Source: Pseudobutyrivibrio sp. YE44
Lineage (GTDB): Bacteria; Bacillota; Clostridia; Lachnospirales; Lachnospiraceae
Direction: 5' to 3'
Assembly (NCBI RefSeq): GCF_900104335.1
Contig: NZ_FMXT01000001.1
Coordinates: forward strand, 248,001 to 312,000
DNA length: 64,000 nucleotides
Below, one piece after another: positions 1 through 39,348 of the stretch (positions are counted from its first letter, which is position 1; the number at the start of each line of letters is the position of its first letter). Position numbers and translations under genes: made by a program. Under the pieces are notes generated by a model. That model worked only from the letters and a program-made list of their open reading frames with translations. It was not told where the DNA came from and ran no database searches.

Positions 1-417
1 TTTCCGTACAGACAGATGAAAAATCTTAAGTACTATTTTATGTATTGGCTCGAAAGAGAATTTAACCAAATGGGTATACCGTACTGTACTATCATTTCTT
101 CTGAAGGAGATAAGTATAGAAGATATAGTCAAACTAGCGGTGTGGTATTAACTACAATAGATTCATCTCTTGGATTAGATTTTAAAGCAGTAATAGTAGC
201 GGGATTATATCCGTATAATTTTGTTTATTCTGAGTCTGGAGCAAAATCTCAAGTAAAGTCGTGGGAGCAAGTTGAAAAGTTTGGACCAGAAATGAAAGAA
301 CGGTTTATGCTCGAAGTTAGAAAAACATATACAGCTGCATCTCGCGCTAGAGAAATTTTATATGTTATAAGTGACGTCGATGAAGGTACACCTTTAAATG
401 ATGTTATACAGGAATAG
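1..417 (+). CDS. C-terminal part of an SF1 (UvrD/Rep-like) helicase, cut by window start
   Basis: The reading frame is open to the first base of the window, so only the last ~138 residues are seen. They contain TIDSSLGLDFKAVIVAGL, which matches the motif V region of UvrD-type helicases (usually T-H-x-x-K-G-L-E-F), and AASRAREILYVI, which matches motif VI. The gene ends 10 nt before the DrmA-like start, so it is probably part of the same operon. The nuclease or ATPase half, if any, lies outside the window. The helicase family is well supported; the specific role is inferred from the defence-type neighbours. Confidence 0.7.
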   Translation, partial: FPYRQMKNLKYYFMYWLEREFNQMGIPYCTIISSEGDKYRRYSQTSGVVLTTIDSSLGLDFKAVIVAGLYPYNFVYSESGAKSQVKSWEQVEKFGPEMKERFMLEVRKTYTAASRAREILYVISDVDEGTPLNDVIQE

Positions 418-427
418 GGGGACAATA

Positions 428-3400
428 ATGGCTAATAATTATAATCTTTTAGCGGAATATATAGTTGAAAAATATATAGCTGACATATCAGGTACAAATC
501 TTGGTGAGCGATTTGTTGGAGCTGAGCCAGAAAAAACTGTTATGGTAGGTATGTTAGCTGAAGGAAGAATGGAAAAATCTTTTGATGGAACATATTCTGA
601 AAATCCTGAACGTAGATTTGAAAGTGTTCCATCAATTTCTCTTCATTTTAAGATTAAAAATGATACAAATGGAAAAATAAGAATAGTGCCAAAGGGATTA
701 CTATTCTATACAGTTCTGCCTAAATATGAAGAGATAAGAGAATACATATTAAAGCGTTTTTCTGAAGAGGACAATTGTAAATACGAGAGTATTGAGGAAT
801 TAACGGATCTATATGCAGATAAAAAGATTGAATTGCCAAAAGTATATAAAAAAATTGATTTAGAGAAGATTTTTGGTAAAGGAATTGAAGTTGAACTGAA
901 CGCTCTTGCGTTAGGAAAAAGTGATTTTGATGAGGATATTGCAGCAATACTTTCTACAAGTCTAAGTGAACAAGTATATTCTGAGATTGCTATTGTAAAT
1001 GAAATGCAAATATCTATTTTTGATTTACTAACTAAGGATGCATTTAACAAGAAATGTTCTAAAAAAAATGAACAGGTTATTCCAGATTGGAAGATAGGAT
1101 TACAATCATATGTTAGTTTATCAAATGATGTATATGAAATATCGTTGCAACTGATTAATAATACTCGTTCAAATACCAGGGCTGATATAGGATATAGCCC
1201 AAGGATATTTAATGCCGGTATAGGGGTTTTTGCTGAAAATACAACATTTGAAGAAATAGAGATTGATTATTTCAAAAAAAGCTATAAAGATAGAGAACCT
1301 GTCTATGCCGTTGCAGAAAATTCTTCATCTAGATTTGACGCAACTGCGAATATGATAACTACAGAAAACGTTCCTATATACAGGCAAAAACGTTTGATTA
1401 CAAATGAAACTTATAAAGACTATTGTTGCTTTGATAAGTTAATAGATGATCCTATTTCAAATTTATCATACTTACTTGAGAAAATGCGAAAGGATTATGA
1501 TGGTAGAATTAACGAATATAATGCTAAAAAGCATTTATTAAGTGATATTGCTAATGATAAATATCTAAGAGATTTAGAAGACTACAAGATAGAAATCGAT
1601 CGTTTTGAGGCTGGAATAAAACAGATCGAATTGAAGGATTATGTAAAAAAGGCCTTCAAATACATGAATATGACATTTAAACAGGAGATGCCTGTAGGAA
1701 CTGAAAACAAAATCAAAGGGTGGAGATTATTCCAGTTAGTATTCATAGTTTCATTAATTCCTGAGATGATTAGAAGTGAATATCCTGATGATAGCTCGAT
1801 TAAAGAAGCGGATAATGAGGTAAGTAACCTTCTTTATTTTCCAACAGGTGGTGGTAAAACAGAGGCATTTTTAGGTGCAACTGTTTTTGATATGTTTTTT
1901 GATAGGTTACGTGGTAAGGATGAGGGTATAACCGCTATTCTAAAATATCCATTAAGGTTGTTAGCTGTTCAACAGTTGGATCGTGTCCTCACTGTTGTAA
2001 TGAAAGCCAATTATGTGAAAAATCAGTCTAAGGTGTTAAAGACAACTAATGATTTTAGTGTTGGATTTTTTGTTGGAAAAAACAATACTCCAAATAAGAT
2101 CACTGCAACTGAGCAGCTAAGTGCTAGATCAGACAGTGCTTCAGTGCGCAAAAATTTAATTATTGATAGTGATGAAGAAACTTTAAATGAGTATTATCGT
2201 TTTATCGATACATGCCCTGTATGTGGGAAAAAACAAGTATCAGTAAAGTTTGATTTTGAAAAATGGACTTTAAATCATTTTTGCACAAATCCAGATTGTG
2301 AGATTGATACATTGCCTATTTTAATTGTTGATAATGATATTTATAGAATGTTACCTACGGTATTAGTTAGTACAGTCGATAAAATGGCAATGTCTGGTAC
2401 AACAAATGAATTTAAGATGCTTTTTGGACAAATCAAGGGAAGATGTAGTAAGCATGGATTTACTTGTCAATCAAAATGCATATGCGGAGATAGTAGTTGT
2501 AGCGATAATGTAAATGCTATTATGCCATTAAAAGATCCGGTTCCAACCTTATTTATACAAGATGAGTTACATTTAGTTAAGGAAAGTCTTGGAACATTTG
2601 ATGCTCACTATGAATCCTTTATCAAATATTATTGCAGTGACTTAATACCAGAAGCTCAAAGAAAACAAATTCGTTTTATTGGCGCTACTGCGACAATTTC
2701 TATGTATGAAGAGCATATAAAAAATTTATACCATAGTTCGGCTAGGAGATTTCCTTGTGAATATCCATCAGTTGAAAATGGAGTGAATTTTTACTCAAAG
2801 ACAGATAAAGAAGATACAACAAGAATTATTCTAGGTTATGCTCCATATGGACGTTCTATGACAAATGGTGTATGGGAGTCTGTATATAAAATGCGTTGTA
2901 TAACATACAATCTTAGAGCACAAATAGATGATACTTATGAAAAATTGTGTGATAGAGGTTTCATAGGTTCAAAGGAATTGCTTGATAATATGTTATATGA
3001 ATATTGGATTGAACTTTTATATAACAATAGAAAACAAGATGCAATGGAGTTAGAGAACGCATTTAGAAACCAGGCTAATAACTTTTTGTTGGAGAAAAAA
3101 ATACCACTATTTAATATTCAGCAAATGACAAGTGATGTTGATTTTCAGTCAGTTAGAAAGACATTATTTGATATTGAAGCAAATCATAAGAAATTGGATA
3201 GTACAAACTTGATTCTTGCAACAAGTACCATATCTCATGGTGTTGATGAAGACTCTTTTAATATTATGTATTTTTATGGAATGCCTAATGCCAATGCTGA
3301 ATATATACAAGCGTATTCACGAACTGGTAGAAAATATACAGGTATAGTCATTGATATTATTAGATTGATGCGAGTGAGAGATCGTTCTTATTTAAAAAAT

Positions 3401-3838
3401 TTTGTTGTATTTCATCAGAATAAGGATGATTTGGTTGAGTCTGTACCTATAAATAGATGGGCGAAGAATGCTATTTATAGTTCATTGCCAGGAATTCTGG
3501 CAGCATTGATATACCAATATTACACCATAAATACTGGAACAGATTCATTATATAAAACAATAAAGGTTCAAGAGTTGCTTGAGACAGGAAAGATTGATAT
3601 AGATGATGCGATTAATAAGATAATTGGTATTTATGCTTGTAATGAACAGGAAAAATTGTCTATTTCATACGAGGAAACTATTAGGAAAGAGGTATCCCGT
3701 ATTTTAAATGAGATAAAAAATGGTGTACATGCTCAAGATGAATTTTTATCTAGAGGAATAGGCAAGTATTCACATGGAAAATTAGAACCAATGTCTAGTC
3801 TAAGAGATACAGAAGAAACGATAGAGATTAGCATATAG
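428..3838 (+). CDS. drmA: DrmA-like SF2 helicase of a DISARM-related system
   Basis: A 1136-residue helicase, starting at the ATG at 428 because an AGGGGG ribosome site lies just before it; an in-frame ATG at 398 overlaps the previous gene and has no such site. The N-terminal ~450 residues are not recognised. Walker A is FPTGGGKTEAF near residue 474. A DEAH-like box (FIQDELHLV) lies near 709, motif III (FIGATATIS) near 749, and motif VI (YSRTGRK) near 964. Cysteine clusters near 595-625 and 673-692 probably bind zinc between the motor motifs. A large helicase followed directly by a DUF1998 protein is the DrmA-DrmB core of DISARM, in which DrmAB recognises and translocates on phage DNA. No methyltransferase or phospholipase-D DrmC is visible, so 'DISARM-related' is safer than DISARM. 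Confidence 0.7.
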   Translation: MANNYNLLAEYIVEKYIADISGTNLGERFVGAEPEKTVMVGMLAEGRMEKSFDGTYSENPERRFESVPSISLHFKIKNDTNGKIRIVPKGLLFYTVLPKYEEIREYILKRFSEEDNCKYESIEELTDLYADKKIELPKVYKKIDLEKIFGKGIEVELNALALGKSDFDEDIAAILSTSLSEQVYSEIAIVNEMQISIFDLLTKDAFNKKCSKKNEQVIPDWKIGLQSYVSLSNDVYEISLQLINNTRSNTRADIGYSPRIFNAGIGVFAENTTFEEIEIDYFKKSYKDREPVYAVAENSSSRFDATANMITTENVPIYRQKRLITNETYKDYCCFDKLIDDPISNLSYLLEKMRKDYDGRINEYNAKKHLLSDIANDKYLRDLEDYKIEIDRFEAGIKQIELKDYVKKAFKYMNMTFKQEMPVGTENKIKGWRLFQLVFIVSLIPEMIRSEYPDDSSIKEADNEVSNLLYFPTGGGKTEAFLGATVFDMFFDRLRGKDEGITAILKYPLRLLAVQQLDRVLTVVMKANYVKNQSKVLKTTNDFSVGFFVGKNNTPNKITATEQLSARSDSASVRKNLIIDSDEETLNEYYRFIDTCPVCGKKQVSVKFDFEKWTLNHFCTNPDCEIDTLPILIVDNDIYRMLPTVLVSTVDKMAMSGTTNEFKMLFGQIKGRCSKHGFTCQSKCICGDSSCSDNVNAIMPLKDPVPTLFIQDELHLVKESLGTFDAHYESFIKYYCSDLIPEAQRKQIRFIGATATISMYEEHIKNLYHSSARRFPCEYPSVENGVNFYSKTDKEDTTRIILGYAPYGRSMTNGVWESVYKMRCITYNLRAQIDDTYEKLCDRGFIGSKELLDNMLYEYWIELLYNNRKQDAMELENAFRNQANNFLLEKKIPLFNIQQMTSDVDFQSVRKTLFDIEANHKKLDSTNLILATSTISHGVDEDSFNIMYFYGMPNANAEYIQAYSRTGRKYTGIVIDIIRLMRVRDRSYLKNFVVFHQNKDDLVESVPINRWAKNAIYSSLPGILAALIYQYYTINTGTDSLYKTIKVQELLETGKIDIDDAINKIIGIYACNEQEKLSISYEETIRKEVSRILNEIKNGVHAQDEFLSRGIGKYSHGKLEPMSSLRDTEETIEISI

Positions 3839-3854
3839 AAGGGGGAATACCTTT

Positions 3855-5753
3855 ATGAGAAGAAGTAAAAGCCAAGCGGTATACAAGTTTCTTCCGGGTG
3901 TATGGGTTTCGGAACGAGATGATAAAGGCAGAGCAGTGACTGCTCGTATAAATAATTGGAATTATTCAAAGATGGAAAACATTTATCATAGCTTTATAGA
4001 AAATGAAATAAAGCGTTTGATAAGGTTATTTGGAGAAAAAGGTGGCGATATATCATCATTTACTTTAGATGATAATGTTGAGGCATTTACGATTGTTGAA
4101 CCAGCGTGTATCGAGAATGTTCCAGATATCTTAGGAGAATTATCGCCTCTTGTATTTTATTGTAGTAGTTGTGGAAGAACTTTTTCTAAAAGAAGTTCAA
4201 AAGAAGTTGATGATAGTACTTGGTTCTGCGCTAATTGTAAAAAACAAACAATTAAGCAATTGCAGATGATTTATGCTTGTGAATGTGGACATGCTGAGCC
4301 AATAAAAATACCTTACAGGAAAGACAAGCAAATGCTGTATCGTCCCAATAAGACTGCATTTAAAATGTTTTATGAAGATGGAAAAAATGAAGTTGCGACA
4401 GATTTTGGAATTCAATGTCCAAGATGTCAATCAAGACTTAATCCAGATAACGCTGAAGCTTCAAGAAATTATAAGCCTTTTACATTAAGCATTATTAATT
4501 TAATTGATAAAGATGCAGGAGATTTTTTTGAAAAAGGAATAGATGCACAAAAAACCGTTATCTCGAGATGGTTTGGACAGGTGTCTGATGCGGAGTATCA
4601 ACAGCTTTTAGATAATATTGATTTAGCATTTAGTGATGGAATGAAGATGGACGCTCAAAGAAAAGAAGCTGAAGAGCAAGCTAAAGCACTAATTGCGATG
4701 AATATTATAAAGGAAGAGGATTTTGAAAAAACTGTTCAAACGGTATTAGGTAATAAGTCGACATCAATTAGTGTAGAAAAATATGCTGCAGCATGCGATG
4801 ATATTTTTGCCAAAAGAAGGGCTGCTGATGCAGAGGAATACATTAGGTGGATTAATTATTATTCTTTTAAATTGATGCAGTATAATACCGTAAAGTATGC
4901 AAAGAAAATTGTCACGTTGCAAGATTCTATTGACCGTCAACTGGAAATGGATTTTATTGACGATCCAAATGATATTTTAGAAATGCAGAATAGATTAGGC
5001 ATAAAAAATATGCAGGTTTCCTGCGATATGGAAATAATAACATGTACATATGGTTATACTCGTCGTGCTAGCGACCCTATAAATAGGACAAACAAAAATA
5101 TTAGATTAAAATTAAATGCATATGATAAAGCTAAGGATGGAAATACAAATCTTGTATATGGTGCAAAATTAGAAACAGAAGGAGTTTTATTTGAAATTGA
5201 CCAGGCAAAGATAGTCTTATGGTTGTTGGAAAATAATATCATTGATGAAGCCGTTATGCCTGATATTAATGATGATATAGCTGTAAAAAAATGGTTTGCA
5301 GATAATGTTAAGGCACATACAATCGGAATGTTTGGTGAGGTAGGGGCAGATTCGGTTACATCTGCTGTGTATGGCTTGTTGCATACAATGTCGCATGCTT
5401 TTATAAAAACTATTGGTGAGTTGAGTGGTTTATCTAGTAATTCATTAACAGAAATATTGTTTCTGGAGACATCTAGCATTTTTATTTATGCTCAAAGTAG
5501 TCAAGGTTTACCATTAGGTGCTATTTCGGGAATGGTTGAATCAAATTACGCTAATTTTTTAAAGCAAACATTTTCAGATAATAGAAATTGTATTTTTGAT
5601 CCAATCTGTGCAGAAAGACAAGACACTGCATGTTCTGCTTGTGTTGTTATTCCAGAAGTATCTTGCGGATATTTTAATTCAAATTTAGGAAGAAAATATC
5701 TATATACAATAGATACAAATGAAAATAAATTAAAGGGTTTTTGGGAGAAGTAG
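3855..5753 (+). CDS. drmB: DrmB-like DUF1998 zinc protein
   Basis: A 632-residue protein starting 16 nt after the DrmA-like gene with a GGGGG ribosome site. It opens with RRSKSQAVYKFLPG, like the RRSQ...PG start of DrmB proteins. Probable zinc pairs are YCSSCGR...CANCKK (~102-130), CECGH (~145) and CPRCQ (~187). The C-terminus carries the DUF1998 signature: GLLHTMSHAF near 505 and a terminal Cys cluster from CIFDPIC to SCGYFN (~579-608). In DISARM, DrmB binds DrmA and supports recognition of invading DNA; the same partnership is inferred here from adjacency. A coiled, charged region (~270-330) separates the two zinc parts. Confidence 0.7.
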   Translation: MRRSKSQAVYKFLPGVWVSERDDKGRAVTARINNWNYSKMENIYHSFIENEIKRLIRLFGEKGGDISSFTLDDNVEAFTIVEPACIENVPDILGELSPLVFYCSSCGRTFSKRSSKEVDDSTWFCANCKKQTIKQLQMIYACECGHAEPIKIPYRKDKQMLYRPNKTAFKMFYEDGKNEVATDFGIQCPRCQSRLNPDNAEASRNYKPFTLSIINLIDKDAGDFFEKGIDAQKTVISRWFGQVSDAEYQQLLDNIDLAFSDGMKMDAQRKEAEEQAKALIAMNIIKEEDFEKTVQTVLGNKSTSISVEKYAAACDDIFAKRRAADAEEYIRWINYYSFKLMQYNTVKYAKKIVTLQDSIDRQLEMDFIDDPNDILEMQNRLGIKNMQVSCDMEIITCTYGYTRRASDPINRTNKNIRLKLNAYDKAKDGNTNLVYGAKLETEGVLFEIDQAKIVLWLLENNIIDEAVMPDINDDIAVKKWFADNVKAHTIGMFGEVGADSVTSAVYGLLHTMSHAFIKTIGELSGLSSNSLTEILFLETSSIFIYAQSSQGLPLGAISGMVESNYANFLKQTFSDNRNCIFDPICAERQDTACSACVVIPEVSCGYFNSNLGRKYLYTIDTNENKLKGFWEK

Positions 5754-5754
5754 T

Positions 5755-7347
5755 ATGGCTATAATGCATCCAGATAATATAGCAATTTATGATGTGATAG
5801 ATTCTGAAAAACAGGTTTATTATGCTTTAAAAACACAATTGCCTGATTCAGATTATGAAGTTTTTTATTCTGTTACTTGGCAGCGCAAGAAGAATGGTAA
5901 AATTGAAAAATCAGAAGCAGATTTTATCATTACATCTCCCAAATATGGCTTTTTGTGTTTAGAGGTAAAAGGTGGAACTGGAATAGAGATTGATGATAAT
6001 TCAATTTGGCACATTAGTGACAATACAGGTGGAAGAGAATTAAGCGAATCACCTTATGAACAAGCAGAAAAGAGTATGTATTATTTTAAGGATATTTATG
6101 CAAATGCAAACCATTTAAAATATCCAGGTATTTTTGCTGCAGGTGCGATATTCCCATTTTACAATTTATCAGATGATATTATTTCTAAGATAAGTGACAG
6201 AAATAGAGAATGTACAATAATGTTTAGTGATATGAATAGTTTGGAAGAAAAGATAAAAAAAATGTTCAAACTATGGGGTGGTAATTCATATGGATACAAA
6301 TTGTATACCAAGCAACATCATGAAGCATTATTAGACTTGATAAAAAAGAAAATTGCAATTTCTGCTGCTGCAGGAGCTTTGGTTGAAGTTAAAGAAAGAG
6401 AATTAAGTGCAATTAATAGAGTACAGGATAATTATATTTATTTATTGTCAAATATAAGGCAGTTTTATATCCGTGGTGGTGCTGGTACTGGTAAAACTTG
6501 GATTGCTATAAAATTGGCGAATTATGAAGCGAAGAAAGAGAGCAAGACTTTGTTCTTATGTGCTTCTAAACCTCTTTCTGATATGGTAAAAAAACATGTA
6601 ACGTCGAGTGTAGACGTTTATGATATAGAGAGCCTCTTTTCCGAAATAAAAAATCCAAATTACAATTTGGTAAATCCGTTATTCGAAGGTATTTCAGATA
6701 ATTTAAGAGAAGATTTACCGATTTATGATGCTGTATTTATAGATGAGGCGCAAGATTTTACTGAAGAATGGGCATATGTCATTAAAATGCTACTAAGTGA
6801 CGAAAAGCAATCAAGGTTAGGAGTATTTTATGATGATGTCCAAATAATACGTGAAAACAGTTTTGGAGATGCATTTATGATAGATTTGCCTCCATTACTG
6901 TTAAATGAAAATATACGAAATACATCAAATATTTACAAATGGGCGTCGGAAACAACTAATCTAGGAAAGGATGTTATTACAAATCCGATCGAAGGTCCGA
7001 TTCCAGTGAAAGAAAAAATAAGTGATAAACGGCATTTATCTCAACGATTAGAAAATTTATTTAAAGAGTATTTGTATGATGAAGCATTAAAAACATCTTC
7101 TTTAGTGATTTTGGTTGATTACATAGATGATTTCTTTGAGTATTTTGATGATGGAATTGCTAAATGGTTGTTTACACGAGATATTAACGATGATTCTGAC
7201 AAAATTAGAGTCTCAACTCCTGAGGATTTCAAGGGCTTAGAATCAGATATGATTATATATATTCATTCTGAGGAGACCACAGATAATATTGATTATATTG
7301 CATATACAAGGGCTAAATATTATTTGCTTGAACTCATTATGAAATAG
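5755..7347 (+). CDS. NERD-domain nuclease fused to an SF1 helicase
   Basis: 530 residues, beginning 1 nt after the DrmB-like stop. The N-terminus has a nuclease-related (NERD) fold: EADFIITSPKYGFLCLEVKGG at ~54-74 supplies the D...ExK residues of the PD-(D/E)XK family. A superfamily 1 motor follows, with Walker A IRGGAGTGKTWIAI near 237, Walker B AVFIDEAQDF near 325, a motif V-like STPEDFKGLESDMIIYIH near 485 and a motif VI-like AYTRAKYYLLE at the C-terminus. The operon thus has two SF1 helicases plus one SF2 helicase. It probably acts on DNA as nuclease and translocase. Domain calls are firm; a role as effector of the DrmAB-like pair is inference. Confidence 0.7.
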   Translation: MAIMHPDNIAIYDVIDSEKQVYYALKTQLPDSDYEVFYSVTWQRKKNGKIEKSEADFIITSPKYGFLCLEVKGGTGIEIDDNSIWHISDNTGGRELSESPYEQAEKSMYYFKDIYANANHLKYPGIFAAGAIFPFYNLSDDIISKISDRNRECTIMFSDMNSLEEKIKKMFKLWGGNSYGYKLYTKQHHEALLDLIKKKIAISAAAGALVEVKERELSAINRVQDNYIYLLSNIRQFYIRGGAGTGKTWIAIKLANYEAKKESKTLFLCASKPLSDMVKKHVTSSVDVYDIESLFSEIKNPNYNLVNPLFEGISDNLREDLPIYDAVFIDEAQDFTEEWAYVIKMLLSDEKQSRLGVFYDDVQIIRENSFGDAFMIDLPPLLLNENIRNTSNIYKWASETTNLGKDVITNPIEGPIPVKEKISDKRHLSQRLENLFKEYLYDEALKTSSLVILVDYIDDFFEYFDDGIAKWLFTRDINDDSDKIRVSTPEDFKGLESDMIIYIHSEETTDNIDYIAYTRAKYYLLELIMK

Positions 7348-7349
7348 AA

Positions 7350-10300
7350 ATGGGGCGCCTTATGCTTATTAATGAAGAACGATTTAAAACTGTCGATTTG
7401 GAACAAATCTATATATCTGCACGATTATATAATATTGCTAAAAGGCACGGAATAAGCAATTTATATGAGCTTTTAGAAAGTTATTATAGTGGAGAGTTTG
7501 CTACTTTTCGTAATGCTGGAATTAAGTGTTTGGAGGAACTAGAGGGATTATCTATTAATGATATACCGCTTGAGTTTAATATTGCTGCTAACGATGATAA
7601 TGAAGATGTGATTGAGAGTAATTGTGAAGTAGTTATTGAGAGAAAACTAACAAAAGAAATAGATTATGTTGTTGTTAATAAGTTAATTGAAGATTATGGA
7701 TTTAAAATATCTCAAATTTGTAAGTGGTATGGAATTACTCGACAAGCTGCAGATATGAGATTTAAACATTCTCAAAGAAAACAAGCTAAACTTAAATATA
7801 CCTGGGAAGGATTTGAGTGTTCTCCTAGTGAAGAAGCTGTTTTTCAGGAAATGATTAACAGGGGAATAGCTGAATTAACTCAAGATGAAATTTTATATGA
7901 GTATTATTCTAATTTAAATGGAGATATGTGCTTTATAGTTGTGTCTCCAGAGTTTATAAAAAGTTTTTTTCTTCAGGACATGCCAGAAAGCATAAGAGAG
8001 TTAGTAGCTATCAAGCGAATAGCTTTTTTTTCATACGAAGAATTAAATATTGTCAATTCATCCACATATGTAATGAGGTTAAAGGAAAAGTATTTAATAC
8101 CATGTGATAAAGGGAAGTTTGTATCTTTTGCTAGAAAAAGAAAACTATCTCCAGAAGAATATAGTCTTTTTATTGCTGGATGTAAATTAGGCACCGATAG
8201 AGGCGTGACAGATGATAAGATAATAGCTTTTTTTGAAGAGAATATGAATTCAGAAGGGAAAGTTCATATAAAAGCTGATCCTAAGAATCAATGGATTAAA
8301 TCTTATGCTTCGCGAAATGGTTTTGGAATAAATGAATTTATATCATTTTATGGATACGAGAGTGCATTATCAAACGATTTGTTGACAGCTGAAGGAGCGC
8401 GTCAAAGACATATGCAAGCAATTCAAAAATATATTGTTCATGATGATACAGTATATATACCATGTACTAGCGATTTTTATCGAGTTTTGAATGCTTATTC
8501 TTCTAGAAAAAAAATGACGATCTCTGATTATGTTGAAGAGCTTGGGTTTAAGAGAATTTCATCAATGTATGCTATCAATGAAGATGACGAGTATTTTGAT
8601 GAATCCATATATGATGACGATGAATCTGATATGCAAATCCATGATGCAAAAGATGATTTTATTGAGAGAATATTTGCAGAGAATCCGTTATTAGGTAATT
8701 ATATTTTTTCAGAAAAGAATTTAGCTGTACTAAATAATAAGGCAAAAAATATAATAGATAAAATAATATGCTCAAGAAGAACGGAAATTACAGAGAGAGA
8801 TAAACAAATACTTGCTCTTTCTGTAATAAACTATGCAAAAAAATGGGATACGGATAAGGGACCTTTTACAAGTTATATTATCAAACAGTATGGATATCGT
8901 TCTGAGGATAGGGTGTATTATCCTATTATTGGAGAAGTATTTTCAGCGATTAGCGATTCTAATCGCTGGTGTTTTTCTCAACATGGTAAAAATCAGTACA
9001 AGTCAACTATTATGATTCATGCAATGGGGTCCATGCGTTCGTGGATGACTTTGTGCGATTTTTTATCTGATTTTTATCAGAATAATTTGGGTTGTAACTA
9101 TGATGAGGATGACCCATATATTTTACGAATGGTATTGTATTTAAGAAACTTATTTTACAAATTAGAATCTGAAGAAAATGATAATTATGTTGAATTCACT
9201 GTAGGTAAAAAACCTTACAGTTTTCAGGAAGGTATAAGAAAACTTGTAGTTTATAGACCCAATTATGCTTCAGAGGTTTTTAGTAGGATGATTTGTAGAA
9301 TTGATGAATCTATGTCCGCTGAACCGGGTAAAGCCAAAACCTATGAGGATGTGCTTGTTGACATATGGTTAAAAAATAAGAAAGATTATTATTCAAATTT
9401 AAGGTCGACAAATACGCAGATATCCTCAAGGAAAAGGAGTATAGCATATACTTACAGTAACATAAGGCCGGAGTATGTTTTACTTAATTCTAGGCTATAT
9501 ATTGAGCTACCGGATATTCGTGTTGAGAATGAACTGGATGACAATTGTACTGTATGTTTGGAAAACTCAAAAGGTATAATAATTTTCGAGCGTAATGTTG
9601 ATTTTTATGGTAATGAATTAGGTCGAACTATAAAAGGTTTTTCGTATGACCTTTCAGATTATTTGGCATCCGAGGGATCAAATTATTTAGACCCAAGAAT
9701 TATTATTAGACAAGCTGAAAGTGTAATTTATGATTCTGGAAGCAAACTTAGAAGAAAAACGATATGCTTTTGTGAAAATAATGAGTGCGCATGGTCCTCT
9801 ATTAACGCAGGTAAATATACTATTGTTGCAAATAAGGGGGCTGAAATTGCTGGAGACAATATTTATATCACATCAGAAAAGACAATAGGTAAGTATAGAA
9901 TAACTGATGTTGAGCTTGACGATAATTATGTTTTGACAGCAGATAATGTGCTTGTATCTTACGATAAAAAAGTTCGCCAGAAAATTCAACTATTATTAAA
10001 CGAGTATGAATGTTCAATGAAATATTATTCAGAAGGCCAGGAGTATATTGTATGTAATAGTAAAGAGAATATAGGCATTAGATTAGATAGTAACGATACA
10101 GAACAAAAATATTTAATTATTTTAAATGATGACCGAGTATTATTATCGGATTTATCATATGAAGATGATGGAAAAATAAGAACGTATAAATTACCTTCAA
10201 ATTTGATAGTGTTTAAAAATCGCCTGCAAATTATTGATATGTCATCAAATAAAATTTTGTTTGATAAGTGGTTTGCTTATGTATCCAGCTTTATTTGTTC

Positions 10301-11477
10301 ATTTAATAGAGATTATTATTTTTCTAGAAGTGAATTACGTGAAAGTACAATAGTATATACTTTGGATGGCATAGAAAATGAAATTGCTAATTATTCTGGG
10401 GATGAAAGTGTTGAATTACCATATGCTGACGGAAACCTAATCGTATATCTGCCAATAGTTAGAATTGAATCACTTGATGGAAGTCGCTGGAAAAATAGAA
10501 ATTACTATGCTAACGAAATAGATAAAAATTATTGTTTAAGGGTTATAAAACCCTCGAATATATCTATAAACATTCTTTTAGGAAATGATTTCGTTAATGC
10601 TGATGAAGATGGACTTTTTTACTTGGGAGAGGCAATTAATACAATAACTGACAAGAAGGAAGTTTGTATATCTTTGGTAATTTCAAATAATGAGCAGGAA
10701 AAGCAGCGTTATGAGCTCGGAAAAGTGGAATATAAAGAAGCGTTTATTTCCGCACCAAAGCTTGAATATACCAATAAAAGTTTAATATGGGACTGCGGTT
10801 TTGGGTTCATTGGTGAACAGTACACAACAACGTTAATAGATGTGTATAATATTGAAAAAGAAAAAGTATTCACGTGTGAAATGGACATTCATAATAGAAT
10901 CATTAAGAGGGATGTTGACTTTGAAGATGGTGAATATACCTATGAAATATATCGAATAGCTCCACAAATGTTACAGCATCAGATTTTGGCAGAAGGGAAA
11001 TTTGTTGCAGGTGATGTAGATAAAATTCGTTTCAAAGGGTATCAAATAGAGATTGATCAAATAGTTTTTGATAATGCAATAGAATCTGGTGTTAAGAATA
11101 TAATGAAGGCATATATAGATTGTATTGAATATGATAGTGAATTATCAAAAACAGAGTGTTCTGAAGGCATATGCCCAAGATATACTGGAATAATGTATTT
11201 TATTAATCCAGAAGGAAAACGTCATGATTATGCTTTTGAGAAAGAAATCCGAAGTGAAAAGGATATACGATTAAAGACTAATCCAGTTCATATTACGTAT
11301 ATTAATGATGGAGTAATGTTAATTACAGATTGTGATGATGATGCGTTAATGTATCGTTATTATGTTGACCGAATTACGCAAAGAAGAATATATCATATTA
11401 CTGATCATGAGATGAACGATTGGGAAAAAGATAGATACGATTCAGTCGATCTCGTGAGGTACAAACGTTTTCGCTAG
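7350..11477 (+). CDS. Unrecognised 1375-aa protein with HhH and HTH N-terminus
   Basis: The largest gene of the defence-type operon, starting 2 nt after the NERD-helicase stop; an alternative start is the ATG at 7362. Residues ~22-60 (AKRHGISNLYELLES...FRNAGIKCLEEL) resemble the helix-hairpin-helix of the RNA polymerase alpha C-terminal domain. Residues ~108-145 (DYGFKISQICKWYGITRQAADMRF) look like a helix-turn-helix. An acidic stretch lies near 415-435. The last ~650 residues are rich in short beta-strand patterns with no motif I recognise. No signal peptide or membrane segment is seen. Its place in the operon suggests a sensor or scaffold acting with the helicases, but no function can be assigned. 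A strong terminator follows. Confidence 0.75.
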   Translation: MGRLMLINEERFKTVDLEQIYISARLYNIAKRHGISNLYELLESYYSGEFATFRNAGIKCLEELEGLSINDIPLEFNIAANDDNEDVIESNCEVVIERKLTKEIDYVVVNKLIEDYGFKISQICKWYGITRQAADMRFKHSQRKQAKLKYTWEGFECSPSEEAVFQEMINRGIAELTQDEILYEYYSNLNGDMCFIVVSPEFIKSFFLQDMPESIRELVAIKRIAFFSYEELNIVNSSTYVMRLKEKYLIPCDKGKFVSFARKRKLSPEEYSLFIAGCKLGTDRGVTDDKIIAFFEENMNSEGKVHIKADPKNQWIKSYASRNGFGINEFISFYGYESALSNDLLTAEGARQRHMQAIQKYIVHDDTVYIPCTSDFYRVLNAYSSRKKMTISDYVEELGFKRISSMYAINEDDEYFDESIYDDDESDMQIHDAKDDFIERIFAENPLLGNYIFSEKNLAVLNNKAKNIIDKIICSRRTEITERDKQILALSVINYAKKWDTDKGPFTSYIIKQYGYRSEDRVYYPIIGEVFSAISDSNRWCFSQHGKNQYKSTIMIHAMGSMRSWMTLCDFLSDFYQNNLGCNYDEDDPYILRMVLYLRNLFYKLESEENDNYVEFTVGKKPYSFQEGIRKLVVYRPNYASEVFSRMICRIDESMSAEPGKAKTYEDVLVDIWLKNKKDYYSNLRSTNTQISSRKRSIAYTYSNIRPEYVLLNSRLYIELPDIRVENELDDNCTVCLENSKGIIIFERNVDFYGNELGRTIKGFSYDLSDYLASEGSNYLDPRIIIRQAESVIYDSGSKLRRKTICFCENNECAWSSINAGKYTIVANKGAEIAGDNIYITSEKTIGKYRITDVELDDNYVLTADNVLVSYDKKVRQKIQLLLNEYECSMKYYSEGQEYIVCNSKENIGIRLDSNDTEQKYLIILNDDRVLLSDLSYEDDGKIRTYKLPSNLIVFKNRLQIIDMSSNKILFDKWFAYVSSFICSFNRDYYFSRSELRESTIVYTLDGIENEIANYSGDESVELPYADGNLIVYLPIVRIESLDGSRWKNRNYYANEIDKNYCLRVIKPSNISINILLGNDFVNADEDGLFYLGEAINTITDKKEVCISLVISNNEQEKQRYELGKVEYKEAFISAPKLEYTNKSLIWDCGFGFIGEQYTTTLIDVYNIEKEKVFTCEMDIHNRIIKRDVDFEDGEYTYEIYRIAPQMLQHQILAEGKFVAGDVDKIRFKGYQIEIDQIVFDNAIESGVKNIMKAYIDCIEYDSELSKTECSEGICPRYTGIMYFINPEGKRHDYAFEKEIRSEKDIRLKTNPVHITYINDGVMLITDCDDDALMYRYYVDRITQRRIYHITDHEMNDWEKDRYDSVDLVRYKRFR

Positions 11478-11485
11478 ATTTGTTA

Positions 11486-11514
11486 AGCACCACTTTAAGA
11501 GTGGTGCTTTTTTT
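11486..11514 (+). terminator. Rho-independent terminator after the defence-type operon
   Basis: A perfect 9-bp stem (AGCACCACT / AGTGGTGCT, 5-nt loop) is followed by seven T. It starts 9 nt after the 1375-aa gene and closes the run of genes from 1 to 11477. Confidence 0.9.
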
Positions 11515-11615: not shown

Positions 11616-12275
11616 ATGGTTGAAATATTTGATATGGATGATATAGAAAAGATGAATACGCAAGTTGAGAATATAGATAATAAGATTCGAGAGCTAAATA
11701 TGCAAAAAGAGCTTATTTTATCTTCTATTAGTATTAAGCAAGATGATAATGCGTCGTTTATTGAACATTTAGCAAAAGCAGTTGACTATGGATATTTAGG
11801 TGATTATGGATTTATAGGACCTGCATATGGCGGGGGATTATACGGATTAAGTGTTGATATTGACAAGGCAAAGCATTATCTTGAGAAGTTTTATTATGAT
11901 TACAAATTAAGCAGATTGGAGAAAGTATCAGCTGATAGTATTATAGTTGCTTTATATAATCTTGCTGCAACAGAGGTTTATATATGTGATAGGGACGAAC
12001 TTATGTATACCCCAGAAATTACAGGAAAAATGGTAGCTATTTATAAGGAAATAGTGAATATTGCTGAGATTGTTGAGAAACCTCTGGAAGAATCGGCGTT
12101 ATTAGATTTATTTAATGTAGGGGTTATACTTTATTCTGGAAAATTTGGAAATACTAAGGAAGAGACTATTTTTTTTGCATCTGATATTGAAACCGGTTTG
12201 AAAGGGATAAAAAAAGCAGCCCAAATGGGATCCAAAGAGGCAATGGATTTTATAAAGGCTGAAGAACTTGAGTAG
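11616..12275 (+). CDS. Small Sel1-like repeat-type protein, function unknown
   Basis: About 219 residues. The ATG at 11616 is chosen; a TTG two codons earlier is possible. The N-terminal ~30 residues form a charged coiled coil (DDIEKMNTQVENIDNKIREL). A helical region follows with A-x-x-x-G-x-x-x-A patterns such as DIDKAKHYLEKFY and GLKGIKKAAQMGSKEAMDF, reminiscent of Sel1/TPR helical repeats used for protein contacts. A 16-codon reading frame (11573-11623) with a better ribosome site (AAGGTGA) overlaps the start, so translation may be coupled to a leader peptide. The stop is 19 nt before the next start. No function is known. Confidence 0.65.
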   Translation: MVEIFDMDDIEKMNTQVENIDNKIRELNMQKELILSSISIKQDDNASFIEHLAKAVDYGYLGDYGFIGPAYGGGLYGLSVDIDKAKHYLEKFYYDYKLSRLEKVSADSIIVALYNLAATEVYICDRDELMYTPEITGKMVAIYKEIVNIAEIVEKPLEESALLDLFNVGVILYSGKFGNTKEETIFFASDIETGLKGIKKAAQMGSKEAMDFIKAEELE

Positions 12276-12294
12276 TATTTTATGGAGGGCGATT

Positions 12295-14391
12295 ATGGGA
12301 TTATTTGATAGACCAGTTAGAGGTGGGTCAGATAGAATGTTTGATTATAACCGTGATGGTGTTTTAGATCCTAATGAACTTGACGCTCAGGAGTGTTTTC
12401 TTCATGACGTAGATACTTTTGATGAAATAATAAAGCGAGATCGTGGTTATGATGATGAAGATTTCGATGAAGACTTCGATGAAGATTTTGACGAAGATTA
12501 TGATGAAGATGAATGGGAAGAAGATGATGAAGATGATGAAGATGATGAAGATGAAGCTTATGACGATGATGAAATAGATGAAGAAGATGATGATGAATAT
12601 TTAGAAGAGGATAGTTCTGCTTATAAAGATAAAATTGTAGGCAATGATATAGTAAAGTGCGGTAGATACTATGTTGACGAAAGTAAACTTGAAAAGGAGT
12701 ACTATCCTGATGGATATTATGTAAACAAAGAAAAAAAGATAATTCCACGTCCAATGAACTGGCATTTTTTCTATGATCATTTTACCAATTTGGATGAAGA
12801 TACATATATAAGATATGCGCATGAGATGGTTAGGTTTGAGCATCCAGATGAAATAGTAGAGTTTGCAGGTATTAGTTGGTATAAAGAAGCAGGAAAAATA
12901 ATTTTAGAAAAAGCCTCAGCTGCTGGAATTGTTTTTTCATTGAAGCAAATTGCGGATATATCAGGCATCTACGGTGATGAATTAACGATGTCATTGATTT
13001 TTAAGACTATTGCTCATGGAGGAGAGCTTTCTTTTAAAGATATTGAATATGTATATGGTGAAATATCAGAAGAAGCTGTAAACAAGATAGTAAAAGAGTG
13101 GATGAAAAGTAAACTTCCTTTAACGAAAGATGATTTATATTCGTTGGAGGGAGAGGTTTCAGATTCAGTTTTTGAACAAGTATGTAGATATGCACTTAAT
13201 AATAATTTGGATTTTGATTCAAAGGATTTGATGGAATATATGTCATATCTTTCTGAGCCAGTGATATCAGATTATGTAAAGGCTTTATTAGATAAAGGAT
13301 ATATCTTTACAAAAGATGAATTATTTGATTTAGATGGATACATAAATGATAAGATTCTGTCGAGAGTCTTAAAAGCATACTTGGATTCGGGAAAGACATT
13401 AACTATAAGCGAAATTAATGATTTGGATGGGTCTGTTTCCAAATCTATTTTGTCTGAGGCTGTAAGACGCTGTAATGATATTTTTTCCCTTTCGGATTTC
13501 AATGATTTGGATGGCTCTGTTTCTCGAGCAGCATTGCTTGATGTAGCAAAGCGTCAAGGTGGGCAAATTAAGTATGATGAATATGAAGGTTTTTATTCTA
13601 TAGCTGAAAGTGAGAAAAAAAATAAAAAAATTGTTGCAGATAATTATAGTTCTAAAAGTATTGCTCCTAAGAATTTGAGTTCAAAAAAAGCAGGTGATGC
13701 ATTCAGGATGGCTAATGACTATTTAAATGCATCTTCTTTTTCTCGTAAGACTTTGATAGAACAACTTCAATATGAAGGCTTTTCAAAAAAGATTGCAACA
13801 GAAGCGGTAGATTTATGTAATGTTGATTGGAGCGTTCAGGTATTAAGAAAGGCTAAAGAATATTTGAATTCATCTGCTTTTTCCCCAAAAAAGTTAGTTG
13901 AACAACTTGAATATGAAGGATTTAGTAAAAGTGAAGCAGAAAATGCTGTAGCGGCATGTCATATAAATATATCGGAGCAGGCATATAAAAAGGCAAAAGA
14001 GTATTTAGTTTCACAAGCATTTTCATTTGATGGGTTGGTGCATCAATTAGAATATGAGGGATTCACGCATGATAAGGCAGTTAAGGCTGTAAAAAAAGTT
14101 AATCCTAATTGGACAGAAATGGCTTTACAAAAGGCAAAAGGGTATGTTCATTCGCAAGCTTTTTCTTATAAAGGATTAATTAGGCAACTAGAATATGAAA
14201 AATTTTCTCCTGAAGATGTAAAATATGCAGTTAATAATTGTGGAGCGGATTGGAAAGAAGCTGCCTTAACTAAGGCTAAAAATTATATGAAGCTGTTTAG
14301 TTTTTCAAAAGATAAATTAACACAGCAACTTGAGCATGATGGATATAAGAAAACTGAAATAAAATATGCAGTTGATAAAATTAGTTTTTAA
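12295..14391 (+). CDS. EF-hand/acidic protein with five Ltp-type repeats
   Basis: 698 residues. The start is at 12295, preceded by GGAGG with 6-nt spacing. Near residue 16 is one EF-hand calcium loop, DYNRDGVLDPNEL. Residues ~45-105 are almost only Asp and Glu. A helical array follows at ~220-430 with ~33-residue repeats marked by DLDGSVS / DLDGYIN. The C-terminus (~465-698) has five ~45-residue repeats of the pattern A-K-x-Y-L-x-x-x-A-F-S-x-x-x-L-x-x-Q-L-E-Y-E-G-F. This matches the helix-turn-helix repeats of Ltp (host cell surface-exposed lipoprotein), the superinfection-exclusion protein of Streptococcus phage TP-J34. Unlike Ltp there is no signal peptide or lipobox. A shorter relative of its N-terminus lies at 43218. 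Function is inferred only from the repeats. Confidence 0.7.
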   Translation: MGLFDRPVRGGSDRMFDYNRDGVLDPNELDAQECFLHDVDTFDEIIKRDRGYDDEDFDEDFDEDFDEDYDEDEWEEDDEDDEDDEDEAYDDDEIDEEDDDEYLEEDSSAYKDKIVGNDIVKCGRYYVDESKLEKEYYPDGYYVNKEKKIIPRPMNWHFFYDHFTNLDEDTYIRYAHEMVRFEHPDEIVEFAGISWYKEAGKIILEKASAAGIVFSLKQIADISGIYGDELTMSLIFKTIAHGGELSFKDIEYVYGEISEEAVNKIVKEWMKSKLPLTKDDLYSLEGEVSDSVFEQVCRYALNNNLDFDSKDLMEYMSYLSEPVISDYVKALLDKGYIFTKDELFDLDGYINDKILSRVLKAYLDSGKTLTISEINDLDGSVSKSILSEAVRRCNDIFSLSDFNDLDGSVSRAALLDVAKRQGGQIKYDEYEGFYSIAESEKKNKKIVADNYSSKSIAPKNLSSKKAGDAFRMANDYLNASSFSRKTLIEQLQYEGFSKKIATEAVDLCNVDWSVQVLRKAKEYLNSSAFSPKKLVEQLEYEGFSKSEAENAVAACHINISEQAYKKAKEYLVSQAFSFDGLVHQLEYEGFTHDKAVKAVKKVNPNWTEMALQKAKGYVHSQAFSYKGLIRQLEYEKFSPEDVKYAVNNCGADWKEAALTKAKNYMKLFSFSKDKLTQQLEHDGYKKTEIKYAVDKISF

Positions 14392-19509: not shown

Positions 19510-19592
19510 ATCCGTATCATGGACGAAATGATAACAATCTTATTTAATGAAATTATAAAGCGCGCGTAATAAAAATGAAGGCAGGTAAAAAT

Positions 19593-20846
19593 ATGGGAAA
19601 AAGTTTAAATGGTAGGGAACTTGGAAAAGGCATTACTCAACGTAAAGACGGACGGTATGTGGCCAGATTTGTTGATAGGTATGGTAATAGAAAAAATGTT
19701 TATGCTTCTAGTATTAATGAAATACGCCTGAAATTAAAAGCTGCACAATTTGATGAAGCTAATAATGAAATGGTTAATTGTTCAGTAACGTTGAAGAAAT
19801 GGTTTGAGTCATGGCTTGATATATATAAGAAAAATGCTATAAGAGTAGGAACAAAAACTCATTATAATATGATTTTTTCTAAGCATATAGAACCTTATCT
19901 TGGGGATAAGTTTCTCAGTGAAATCAAGCCCTCTGATATAAGAAAATTGATTAATAATTTGGAAAACAATGGTCTTGGCTATTCTACTCAGAGTAGAGTG
20001 AAAATTATGTTAGTGGATATGTTTGATAAGGCAATAATGGATGATTTAATAAGAAAAAATCCTGCTAAGAATATTAAGCTCAACAAGGGGGATTTTAATC
20101 GACGTGTTTTATCAAAAGAAGAGCAGATTACTTTTTTTGAGTGTTCCAAAGGTACATATTTCGATAATCTTTATGTGGTTGCAGTTACTACAGGAATGAG
20201 GATTGGAGAGATATGTGCTCTTACCTGGGATGATATTGATTTGAAGGCTAAGAAAATTCATGTGAGCAAAACACTTACTTATCAAAAATTTGAAGGAGAT
20301 GATTGCAAAACTTTTCATATTGGGCCTCCAAAGACAAAGACCAGTAATCGTGATATACCTATTAGTCCTAAGTGCGAAATGGCTTTAAAAAAGCAGTTCA
20401 TATTGAGGAATAATATTATGTCACGTCATAGAATAAAACCCATTGAAGGATTTGAAAACTTATTATTTGTTTCCAGGTATGGAAGACCACTTTGTGATCA
20501 AACTATAATTGATTCTATTGATAGAATAGTTAATGAAATAAATAGTTATAGGGATGAAGCTGAGTTATTTGATAGAATTTCCCCACATTGCTTCAGACAT
20601 ACATTTGCAACTAGATGTTTTGAGGCTGGAATTCCACCTAAGACAGTTCAGATACTTTTAGGTCATGCTACTTTAGATATGACTATGAATCTTTATACTC
20701 ATGTATTAGATGATAAAAAGGATGAGGCTGTTGTTGCACTAGATGATTATTATTTTGATATAGAGCAGCAAGGCGATGTCGTTATTGAGGATGATTTCAA
20801 AAAGGCTATACTAAACAGCCGAAAAGTGGTAAATTTCGAGATATAA
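19593..20846 (+). CDS. int: Tyrosine recombinase (integrase), Tn916-like family
   Basis: 417 residues from the ATG at 19593 (AAGGCAGG upstream); an in-frame ATG at 19575 lacks a site. The N-terminal region (GITQRKDGRYVARFVD) is the arm-binding fold, followed by a SAM-like core-binding part (~55-150). Catalytic residues are all present: Arg in TTGMRIGEI (~200), His-x-x-Arg in HCFRHTF (~332), His in LLGHA (~356) and Tyr in LYTHV (~368). Three copies of an 11-bp repeat follow the stop. A second, catalytically deleted copy of this gene lies at 28278-28588. It probably integrates and excises the element whose end this is. Confidence 0.9.
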   Translation: MGKSLNGRELGKGITQRKDGRYVARFVDRYGNRKNVYASSINEIRLKLKAAQFDEANNEMVNCSVTLKKWFESWLDIYKKNAIRVGTKTHYNMIFSKHIEPYLGDKFLSEIKPSDIRKLINNLENNGLGYSTQSRVKIMLVDMFDKAIMDDLIRKNPAKNIKLNKGDFNRRVLSKEEQITFFECSKGTYFDNLYVVAVTTGMRIGEICALTWDDIDLKAKKIHVSKTLTYQKFEGDDCKTFHIGPPKTKTSNRDIPISPKCEMALKKQFILRNNIMSRHRIKPIEGFENLLFVSRYGRPLCDQTIIDSIDRIVNEINSYRDEAELFDRISPHCFRHTFATRCFEAGIPPKTVQILLGHATLDMTMNLYTHVLDDKKDEAVVALDDYYFDIEQQGDVVIEDDFKKAILNSRKVVNFEI

Positions 20847-36110: not shown

Positions 36111-36402
36111 AAAATTTACTGAAGATAGAGACTGGGATCAATTTCATTCACCAGTAAATCTTGCAAAGTCTATTGTCATTGAAGCAGCGGAATTACTTGA
36201 GTGTTTCCAGTGGGATAATGATAATTTTGACGAGGAGCATGTAAAGGAAGAACTAGCAGATGTTATGGTCTATTGTCAGAACTTGGCTGATAAGCTTGGT
36301 GTTAATCCTGACGAGATTATCAATAAAAAAATGGACCAGAATGAAGCAAAGTATCCTGTTGAAAAAGCAAAAGGTAGCAGCGCTAAGTATAATGAACTAT
36401 AA
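36082..36402 (+). CDS. MazG-like nucleotide pyrophosphohydrolase
   Basis: 106 residues of the RS21-C6/MazG-like helical fold: SPVNLAKSIVIEAAELLECFQW (~20-41) and EELADVMVYCQNLADKLG (~54-71) provide the ExxE...ExxD metal-binding acids. Such enzymes hydrolyse (d)NTPs to monophosphates and pyrophosphate. It starts 29 nt inside the DUF2075 gene with a GGAG site, so translation is coupled. Substrate unknown. Confidence 0.85.
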   Translation: MTEKTIQRIRKFTEDRDWDQFHSPVNLAKSIVIEAAELLECFQWDNDNFDEEHVKEELADVMVYCQNLADKLGVNPDEIINKKMDQNEAKYPVEKAKGSSAKYNEL

Positions 36403-36418
36403 GCTCTATGGGGGGAAT

Positions 36419-36718
36419 ATGGCAAAACTAGTACGAGACAAGATACCAGAGATAATAAAAGCAGATGGTAAAACACCTGTTACCAGAATACTTGATGAGG
36501 CTGAATATCTGGAAGAGCTGGATAAAAAGCTAAACGAAGAAGTGGCTGAGTATCAGGCAGATAAATCAATTGAAGAGATGGCTGATGTTTTAGAAGTGCT
36601 ATTTGCAATATGTGAAGCTAGGGGACATAGCATAGATGAGCTGATGGCAGTGAAACAGAAAAAGCAGGATGCTCGCGGGGCATTTAAAGAGCGCATTTAT
36701 TGGGAAGGAAATAAGTAA
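36419..36718 (+). CDS. Second MazG-like (PRA-PH-type) pyrophosphohydrolase
   Basis: 99 residues beginning MAKLVRDKIPEII, the typical start of the phosphoribosyl-ATP pyrophosphohydrolase-like MazG family. KKLNEEVAEYQADKSIEEMADVLEVLFAI (~40-68) gives the EExxE...ExxD metal site. It lies 16 nt after the first MazG-like gene and overlaps the HNH gene start by one base. Two different pyrophosphohydrolases side by side are unusual for a housekeeping role. Confidence 0.85.
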   Translation: MAKLVRDKIPEIIKADGKTPVTRILDEAEYLEELDKKLNEEVAEYQADKSIEEMADVLEVLFAICEARGHSIDELMAVKQKKQDARGAFKERIYWEGNK

Positions 36719-37881: not shown

Positions 37882-38246
37882 ATTAGTGGGATCTTATTTG
37901 TAATGTACTTTAGAGATAATATGAAAACACTTTTACGGTTATAGTCCTGGAGTTATACCGAAGATTATATGATATTATCATCCTAGATTTGTCTTTTTAT
38001 TTTATCTGTGATATAAAGAGATAGTAACTTAATAATAGCAGGGCATAGTCTTATAAATTGAAAACATTGTTTTCGTATGTTTATTCTGGTTTATGAAAGT
38101 GAACCCTTGTAAACATGATAAAACAAAGAATTAAATTTATTTTACCTTGCCTAACACGGGCAATACGTTTACGGAAATGTATTGTTATTTGTGTTAGGTA
38201 TTTTTATGTCCTTCTTTAACAACATTCATTCTAAGGAGGATAAAAA
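37882..38246. other. 365-nt intergenic region
   Basis: No open frame of note. It holds AT-rich DNA with several weak promoter-like stretches and, near its right end, the hairpin at 38150-38205. Confidence 0.5.
38150..38205 (+). terminator. Hairpin with T-tail ahead of the RNase III gene
   Basis: CCTAACAC / GTGTTAGG encloses CAATAC / GTATTG, followed by TATTTTTA. It lies 42 nt before the RNase III start, so it is either an upstream terminator or an attenuator in that gene's leader. Confidence 0.6.
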
Positions 38247-39344: not shown

Positions 39345-39348
39345 TCTG

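Follow-up and report, generated by a model that had tools for sequence, protein, structure and literature searches.

The YprA helicase family comprises DISARM, Dpd, Druantia, ARMADA, BRIGADE and TALON; many DISARM-like classes are uncharacterised and, as presented in PMC12458937, a NERD nuclease is named for TALON only. The words DruH and AIPR are absent from the main text of that source. NERD domains have also been linked to Mokosh and Nhi-like systems (PMC10952713). No operon combining DrmA and DrmB with a NERD helicase was apparent among the open-access papers listed, supplementary tables and most subscription papers being outside this scope. In the present study we analysed a stretch of 64,000 nucleotides (nt) from Pseudobutyrivibrio sp. 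YE44 (contig NZ_FMXT01000001.1, positions 248,001-312,000, forward strand; hereafter the window) and the operon at its beginning, which has the order superfamily 1 (SF1) helicase–DrmA–DrmB–NERD helicase–giant protein of 1375 amino acids (aa). We lean towards regarding these five genes as a defence operon, probably located on a conjugative element, which is built on the split DrmA and DrmB of the DISARM branch and acts by the mechanism proposed below. Most likely it works in the manner of a DISARM core that has borrowed its nuclease and has a sensor resembling that of Druantia, and we read it as a DISARM/Druantia hybrid.

With the DrmE kind of DISARM (DrmE–DrmA–DrmB–DrmC), presumably the one labelled class 2, the operon shares a helicase split into DrmA and DrmB in the same order, and its DrmA groups with haloarchaeal, cyanobacterial and Streptomyces plasmid DrmA proteins; it differs in having an SF1 helicase before DrmA, and a NERD helicase and the giant after DrmB. 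Druantia type III and III-like systems (DruH–DruE) are similar in that homologues of the giant directly precede DruE-type helicases, and DruH of type III is, like the giant, large, diverges faster than its helicase and has modelled immunoglobulin (Ig)-like domains. However, the operon has no fused DruE, DrmA and DrmB being separate genes, and the giant is unrelated to DruH by model or profile and has an extra domain resembling the C-terminal domain of the RNA polymerase α subunit (αCTD). TALON also has a NERD nuclease beside a YprA-family helicase, but its helicase is ARMADA-like, is fused to an inactivated RNase H-type domain and is accompanied by TPR-CSD and TBP genes (PMC12458937). None of the TALON features was found among the five genes and no TPR-CSD or TBP gene among the genes scanned, the helicase here being split and of the DrmA type. 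RTasNERD-Hel of PADLOC and similar NERD helicases also have a NERD domain fused to an SF1-type helicase, but no reverse transcriptase was present among the neighbouring genes scanned.

The DISARM features present are the DrmA helicase and a separately encoded DrmB. Scans of the operon, of the next two genes downstream and of a set of upstream genes gave no match to the phospholipase D (PLD) nuclease DrmC, no DrmMI or DrmMII methyltransferase was found in the operon, and neither DrmD nor DrmE was seen in the operon or the upstream genes scanned. Because DrmC, DrmM, DrmD and DrmE were not seen, the operon is not DISARM by its features, and by the tested defining features it is neither DISARM nor Druantia III nor TALON. 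An earlier reading of the DNA alone (the original prediction) had called the locus DISARM-related and lacking a PLD nuclease; the label is half right, and the lack of a PLD nuclease holds for all genes scanned.

The operon and its DrmA–DrmB core

Five same-strand genes with gaps of 1-16 nt and a terminator at the end had been predicted, and the arrangement was recovered. Each of the five genes has an open frame on the + strand, and an intrinsic-terminator-like hairpin with a T run, found by hairpin scan, closes the operon after the giant (11485..11509, +). On the other side, a strong hairpin of 14 pairs lies in the 189-nt gap 5' of the SF1 gene (L002:6292-6323, where L002 is the upstream DNA and L002:6462 equals window position -1538). 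The five genes form one operon with terminator hairpins at both sides. Terminator-like sites in the region were above chance (12 found, 4.8 expected), and promoter-like sites were close to it (113 found, 109.7 expected). The predicted gap sizes stood for DrmA–DrmB (16 nt), DrmB–NERD helicase (1 nt) and NERD helicase–giant (2 nt). Between the SF1 gene and DrmA the open reading frame (ORF) caller gave an overlap of 20 nt, with the DrmA start at 398; since a GGGGG run lies just 5' of the ATG at 428, the start is probably at 428 and the true gap probably 10 nt.

Only the 3' end of the first gene, encoding an SF1 (UvrD-like) helicase, lies in the window (1..417, +). The whole gene encodes 651 aa and starts at contig position 246462 (window -1538), approximately 1.5 kb before the window. 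The helicase motifs NPGAGKS (Walker A) and DEVQ are present. There was no DrmD or DrmE among its 17 PADLOC matches, and its identity as DrmE was ruled out, with no BLAST match to two DrmE proteins. A decayed NERD domain at its N-terminus had been suspected by eye and is not claimed here; the profile alignment with NERD helicases begins only at residue 169.

The central pair consists of a DrmA-like SF2 helicase (398..3838, +; 1146 aa as called, 1136 aa if started at 428) and a DrmB-like protein (3855..5753, +; 632 aa with 17 cysteines). The predicted kinship of this pair to DrmA and DrmB was supported by PADLOC (DrmA, E 2.2e-138; DrmB, E 1.6e-44), by NCBIfam matches far below their cut-offs (DrmAS, 362.6 bits against 950; DrmB, 91.3 bits against 240) and by a DrmA tree. 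The canonical DISARM locus of genome G342 (DrmMII, DrmD, DrmA, DrmB, DrmC) served as a control for the models. DrmA has the motifs TGGGKTE (483), DELH (722) and GATAT (762), and a pattern search for motif VI found none. The Pfam model MZB (DUF1998) was not detected in the window DrmB. The MZB search of the whole genome was likewise empty despite the DrmB there, and was positive as a control in 8 of 14 genomes; the model thus misses the window DrmB.

All nine DrmA proteins compared by BLAST matched the window DrmA, the best relatives being those of G900, G1230 and three haloarchaeal plasmids (30-35% over 768-1165 columns), and both DrmA and DrmB align with their relatives across most of their length. 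In a tree of 20 rows the window DrmA falls, on a long branch of its own, into a clade of eight (support 98/99), which contains these relatives together with Allocoleopsis and Streptomyces; the rows DrmA_Strep and DruE_Ecoli are long branches, and eight rows including that of the window are of unusual composition. At the plasmid loci of this clade DrmE is annotated in two of five, with a hypothetical protein in that place in the other three, and a PLD gene stands right after DrmB in four of five. Four other DrmA proteins linked to NERD helicases sit in the other DrmA clade, with canonical DISARM DrmA. The idea that DrmA divides neatly into a DrmD class and a DrmE class was considered and rejected, as DrmE-like proteins precede other-clade DrmA in G153, G114 and G665. 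DrmA of the window's sort is rare: four of 348 genomes of the phylum matched at E 1e-40, and two of 295 genomes of the order with a protein query, the own genome being included in both counts. Another DrmA–DrmB pair, its DrmA recognised by the same model, was seen at L058:5123-17075 with a further unusual set of partners, standing beside an MzaA-like gene and followed by methyltransferase-like and HerA-like genes.

The NERD nuclease-helicase in the place of DrmC

The fourth gene (5755..7347, +; 530 aa) encodes a NERD nuclease-helicase. Its NERD domain comprises aa 17-115 (5803..6099, +; Pfam E 2.5e-11) and is followed by helicase-type ATPase matches in Pfam, the ATPase site looking intact. The best PADLOC match was RTasNERD-Hel (E 2.7e-54). 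Profile searches of the operon proteins, which had been proposed as a check, thus matched DrmA, DrmB and NERD models and gave no DrmC.

To survey the neighbours of this gene, a profile of three proteins (window, G560 and G153) was searched with a threshold of E 1e-50 against 200 genomes of the family (six matched) and 291 of the class (nine matched); with the own genome in both sets, this gave 14 genomes. Of 15 proteins compared, 14 retain the NERD-domain residues D56, E70 and K72, the G657 protein being without that region. A YprA-family helicase lies directly upstream of the NERD helicase in 9 of the 14 genomes, a count given without a random-gene baseline, and in 6 of 11 when the three proteins of the profile are left out. 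The upstream helicase is DrmA–DrmB in five (window, G153, G114, G171 and G665) and DruE-type in four (G560, G116, G641 and G657). A helicase similar to DpdF/C3a193 lies directly upstream in G197, and a DpdF-like helicase two genes downstream in G775, on a contig of 5.8 kb. The NERD helicases of G799, G545 and G723 stand beside neither DrmAB nor a DruE-type helicase; the G799 and G545 proteins are identical, and the G545 contig extends for only about 200 bases on the upstream side of its gene.

A plasmid search for the NERD helicase gave two matches at E 1e-15, in Shinella and Selenomonas. In the survey of gene order, the arrangement SF1–DrmA–DrmB–NERD recurred in G171, of the same family, and on the Shinella plasmid, a UvrD-type helicase preceding DrmA in both. 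In G114 the protein before DrmA is DrmE-like (PADLOC DrmE E 3e-6), and so it is in G153 and G665 by BLAST similarity, the G153 protein being without a PADLOC match. The NERD helicase is found behind other-clade DrmA, behind window-clade DrmA and behind DruE, and therefore it occupies the place of DrmC in two DrmA clades and also follows DruE. This part of the finding rests on repeated observation, and agrees with the original prediction, in which a nuclease-helicase, together with a large unknown protein, might take the place of missing DISARM parts. For the nuclease that DISARM uses, the recurrent NERD nuclease-helicase provides a named candidate.

The giant protein and its link to DruE

The last gene (7350..11477, +) encodes the giant, which had been predicted as a large unknown protein. 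It matches no PADLOC model at E 1e-3, but its homologues have recognisable neighbours, namely Druantia-type DruE helicases. A direct search of 250 genomes of the family gave strong matches in the own genome, G098 and G247; five of the eight matching genomes, with E above 1e-4, were dropped. A profile search at class level added giants in G745, G764 and G560. This profile matched 213 of 391 genomes. Among the matches listed, those outside the own genome, G745, G764, G560 and G574 are confined to positions ~5-94, which is the αCTD-like part; they are most probably RNA polymerase alpha and were left out of every count. In G574 the match is limited to the repeat region described below, in a 384-aa protein resembling plasmid HNH proteins, which is not counted as a giant. 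A scan of genome contigs with an alignment gave nine giant loci, two of which lie on contigs of G098, from the same family, and of G745, from the same class; the scan with the single giant protein gave no match.

In eight of the nine contig loci a DruE-type helicase follows the giant directly (overlap of 59 nt to gap of 2 nt), and the ninth, L070, ends inside the giant. The same neighbour follows directly in G247, G764 and G560, where the giants are shorter and without the N-terminal part. In each of the 11 loci with enough sequence, a strong homologue of the giant thus has a DruE-type helicase directly behind it. PADLOC confirmed DruE for the helicases of G247 and G098, and the others are DruE-type by BLAST similarity to those two. 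In G560 the giant and the DruE-type helicase are followed by a NERD helicase, and in both G116 and G641 a weaker giant-like protein (72 and 21 bits, respectively) precedes a PADLOC-confirmed DruE and a NERD helicase. The similarity to the giant of the protein in its place in G657 was not significant. Among eight loci the giant was less conserved than its DruE partner in all 28 pairs, with a mean identity of 57.4% compared to 77.5%. Phage records gave no match to the giant. Viral contigs gave none with alignment A1 and two with alignment A3, which end in the giant or right after it. Identity of the giant with DrmE was rejected: its profile was not significant on the DrmE-like proteins of G153 and G114, and gave no match on two DrmE proteins. 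At one giant-like–DruE–NERD set, a match to the candidate defence family HEC-05 (E 4e-224) was seen just before it (L092:715-2463).

Based on structure models, and with moderate confidence, the giant appears to combine an αCTD-like domain with helices and an Ig-like domain chain. In Pfam it has a weak match to RNA polymerase αCTD below the curated cut-off (E 0.002) and one chance-level match. The putative αCTD-like domain (aa 11-64; 7380..7541, +) was also seen in a model of the N-terminal 440 aa, which has a mean predicted local distance difference test (pLDDT) score of 75 and a predicted template modelling (pTM) score of 0.45. The top matches of this model were RNA polymerase αCTD structures (1z3e_B, probability 1.00, root-mean-square deviation (rmsd) 1.6 over 59 columns, E 0.19), none of its structure matches reaching E 0.001. 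Several relatives of the giant have extra N-terminal αCTD-like copies, as judged from second matches. The repeat region (aa 105-403; 7662..8558, +) resembles HNH endonuclease proteins on plasmids of Klebsiella grimontii and Pontibacillus, and matches to the giant on plasmids were limited to this region; Pfam gave no HNH match in the giant itself. The repeat region is possibly a module for DNA recognition that several nucleases share. The plasmid HNH proteins concerned are located at L018:7599-9779 and L019:7788-9680.

The model of the C-terminal 948 aa starts with helices and consists mostly of strands from about residue 708, the nearly all-beta part (aa ~708-1375; 9471..11474, +) being modelled as an Ig-like chain with moderate to low confidence. 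The top Foldseek matches of the C-terminal part were Ig-like, FN3-like and other beta-sandwich chains (titin 2.6e-7, S-layer Sap 4e-7). Among the 50 matches listed the TM-scores by query were 0.06-0.14 and the rmsd large, and therefore the kind of fold is supported and not its arrangement.

Proposed mechanism, alternative explanations and surroundings

DrmAB binds single-stranded DNA and substrates with 5' overhangs, and ATP hydrolysis is essential; DrmC seems non-essential, and it has been suggested that DrmAB may recruit other nucleases (PMC9142583). DruH has been proposed to sense infection through its Ig-like domains, it is more divergent than DruE, and its dimer has nuclease activity (PMC13192584). 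Alone it inhibits host growth, an effect which DruE neutralises (PMC13316683). Based on these properties we propose DrmAB as the motor of the system, the NERD helicase as its nuclease, the giant as sensor and DNA holder, and the SF1 helicase as accessory. In the mechanism that we infer, in all its steps, DrmA and DrmB would load on invading phage or plasmid DNA that is single-stranded or has a 5' overhang and would travel along it, the NERD helicase would replace DrmC and degrade the exposed DNA, and the SF1 helicase would unwind or remodel ends. The αCTD-like and repeat domains of the giant may hold DNA, while its Ig-like chain would recognise a phage protein, as proposed for DruH in Druantia III. 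A methyltransferase of its own would perhaps be unneeded, because selection would be by DNA structure and/or phage protein. Tentatively, the operon could be a working chimera, in which Ig-chain sensors and NERD nuclease-helicases are interchangeable between Druantia-type and DISARM-type helicases and the sensor is independent of methylation. The operon suggests that defence systems trade parts and, if the giant is indeed shared by Druantia-type and DISARM-type helicases, sensor swapping between the branches becomes testable.

Several observations weigh against this interpretation. The giant was observed beside DrmAB once, at the window locus only. Its Ig-like part rests on a model with a mean pLDDT of 67 and a pTM of 0.37. 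It is not recognised as DruH: there was no PADLOC DruH match, with models that do find two real DruH, and the hhalign probability against a thin DruH alignment of two rows was 0.9%. The NERD helicase stands without DrmAB or a DruE-type helicase directly upstream in 5 of the 14 genomes, and that of the Selenomonas plasmid has no DrmAB beside it. The SF1 helicase of the window barely resembles its counterparts in G171 (E 0.005) and in Shinella (E 0.06-0.07). A methyltransferase gene lies close to DrmAB–NERD in G153 and G114, and DrmAB has been proposed to sense methylation (PMC9142583), both of which speak against a methylation-free system.

It is possible, though unlikely, that two systems are present, a DISARM-like SF1–DrmA–DrmB–NERD set and a stray giant from a Druantia-III-like pair that has lost its DruE, the giant being kept only by the shared transcript. 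This would fit the sets of G171 and Shinella, in which no giant was detected, the DruE-type helicase behind all 11 other strong giants with downstream sequence, and the own genome, where no DruE-type gene was found with a DruE protein query (a search without a positive control) or with Pfam MZB (control positive in 8 of 14 genomes). However, the giant gene is intact, begins 2 nt after the NERD helicase gene and shares its terminator. Moreover, G560 has a giant-type protein, a DruE-type helicase and a NERD helicase side by side, and G116 and G641 show the combination more weakly.

Ordinary DISARM is a good deal less probable. It would include the same-strand unit upstream, which consists of a Dam-type methyltransferase (278 aa), a type II restriction enzyme (429 aa; PADLOC REase_II E 8e-93, DUF6996/6997/7226 kind) and an AIPR protein (579 aa; Pfam E 9e-29) at L002:2334-6272 (window -5666 to -1728), with these genes supplying self-marking. 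The unit is adjacent and on the same strand as the operon, DISARM is named after its link to restriction–modification, and methyltransferase genes occur near DrmAB–NERD in the two genomes mentioned above, the neighbours in G171, G665 and Shinella being only partly scanned. Nevertheless, the 14-pair hairpin lies in the gap between the unit and the operon, for which reason the unit was rejected as part of the operon. The 23 PADLOC matches of the methyltransferase are to type II and orphan Dam-type models, DrmM not being among them, and the restriction enzyme gene is 11 nt behind it. The absence of a methyltransferase, as originally predicted, holds for the operon but not for its surroundings, as the Dam-type gene lies 4.8-5.7 kb before window position 1, as a separate unit behind a terminator. 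A methyltransferase together with a PLD protein directly upstream had been named as evidence against the prediction; to the letter the former is there, and the latter was not found. We give little credence to a non-defence function, i.e. a DNA-processing operon of a conjugative element, for example for repair or maintenance after transfer. YprA-family helicases do have repair roles too (PMC12458937), and the operon lies between conjugation-like genes and an integrase, but its DrmA falls among DISARM-type DrmA proteins in the tree, and related gene sets elsewhere adjoin restriction and other defence-type genes.

Further upstream, ORFs resemble conjugation genes by eye, without a model search (VirD4-like, VirB4-like, an NlpC/P60-type secreted hydrolase and a relaxase), and a Tn916-type integrase is located at 19575-20846 of the window. 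From these genes we infer an integrative conjugative element carrying two defence-like cargo units. A search for tRNA genes was negative for the window and for L001-L003, and Rfam gave nothing on L002. No useful literature was found that joins AIPR, DISARM, conjugative elements and Lachnospiraceae. Shortly after the operon, at 12268-14391, a 707-aa protein has an N-terminal stretch that is acidic, together with five Lipoprotein_Ltp stretches (Pfam E 9e-51). A second defence-like stretch lies at 34212-41316. Besides a Schlafen-group helicase (Pfam E 4e-104) and an HNH protein, it encodes a protein that contains DUF4379 zinc-finger stretches six times and matches the MTES_1575 restriction enzyme below threshold.

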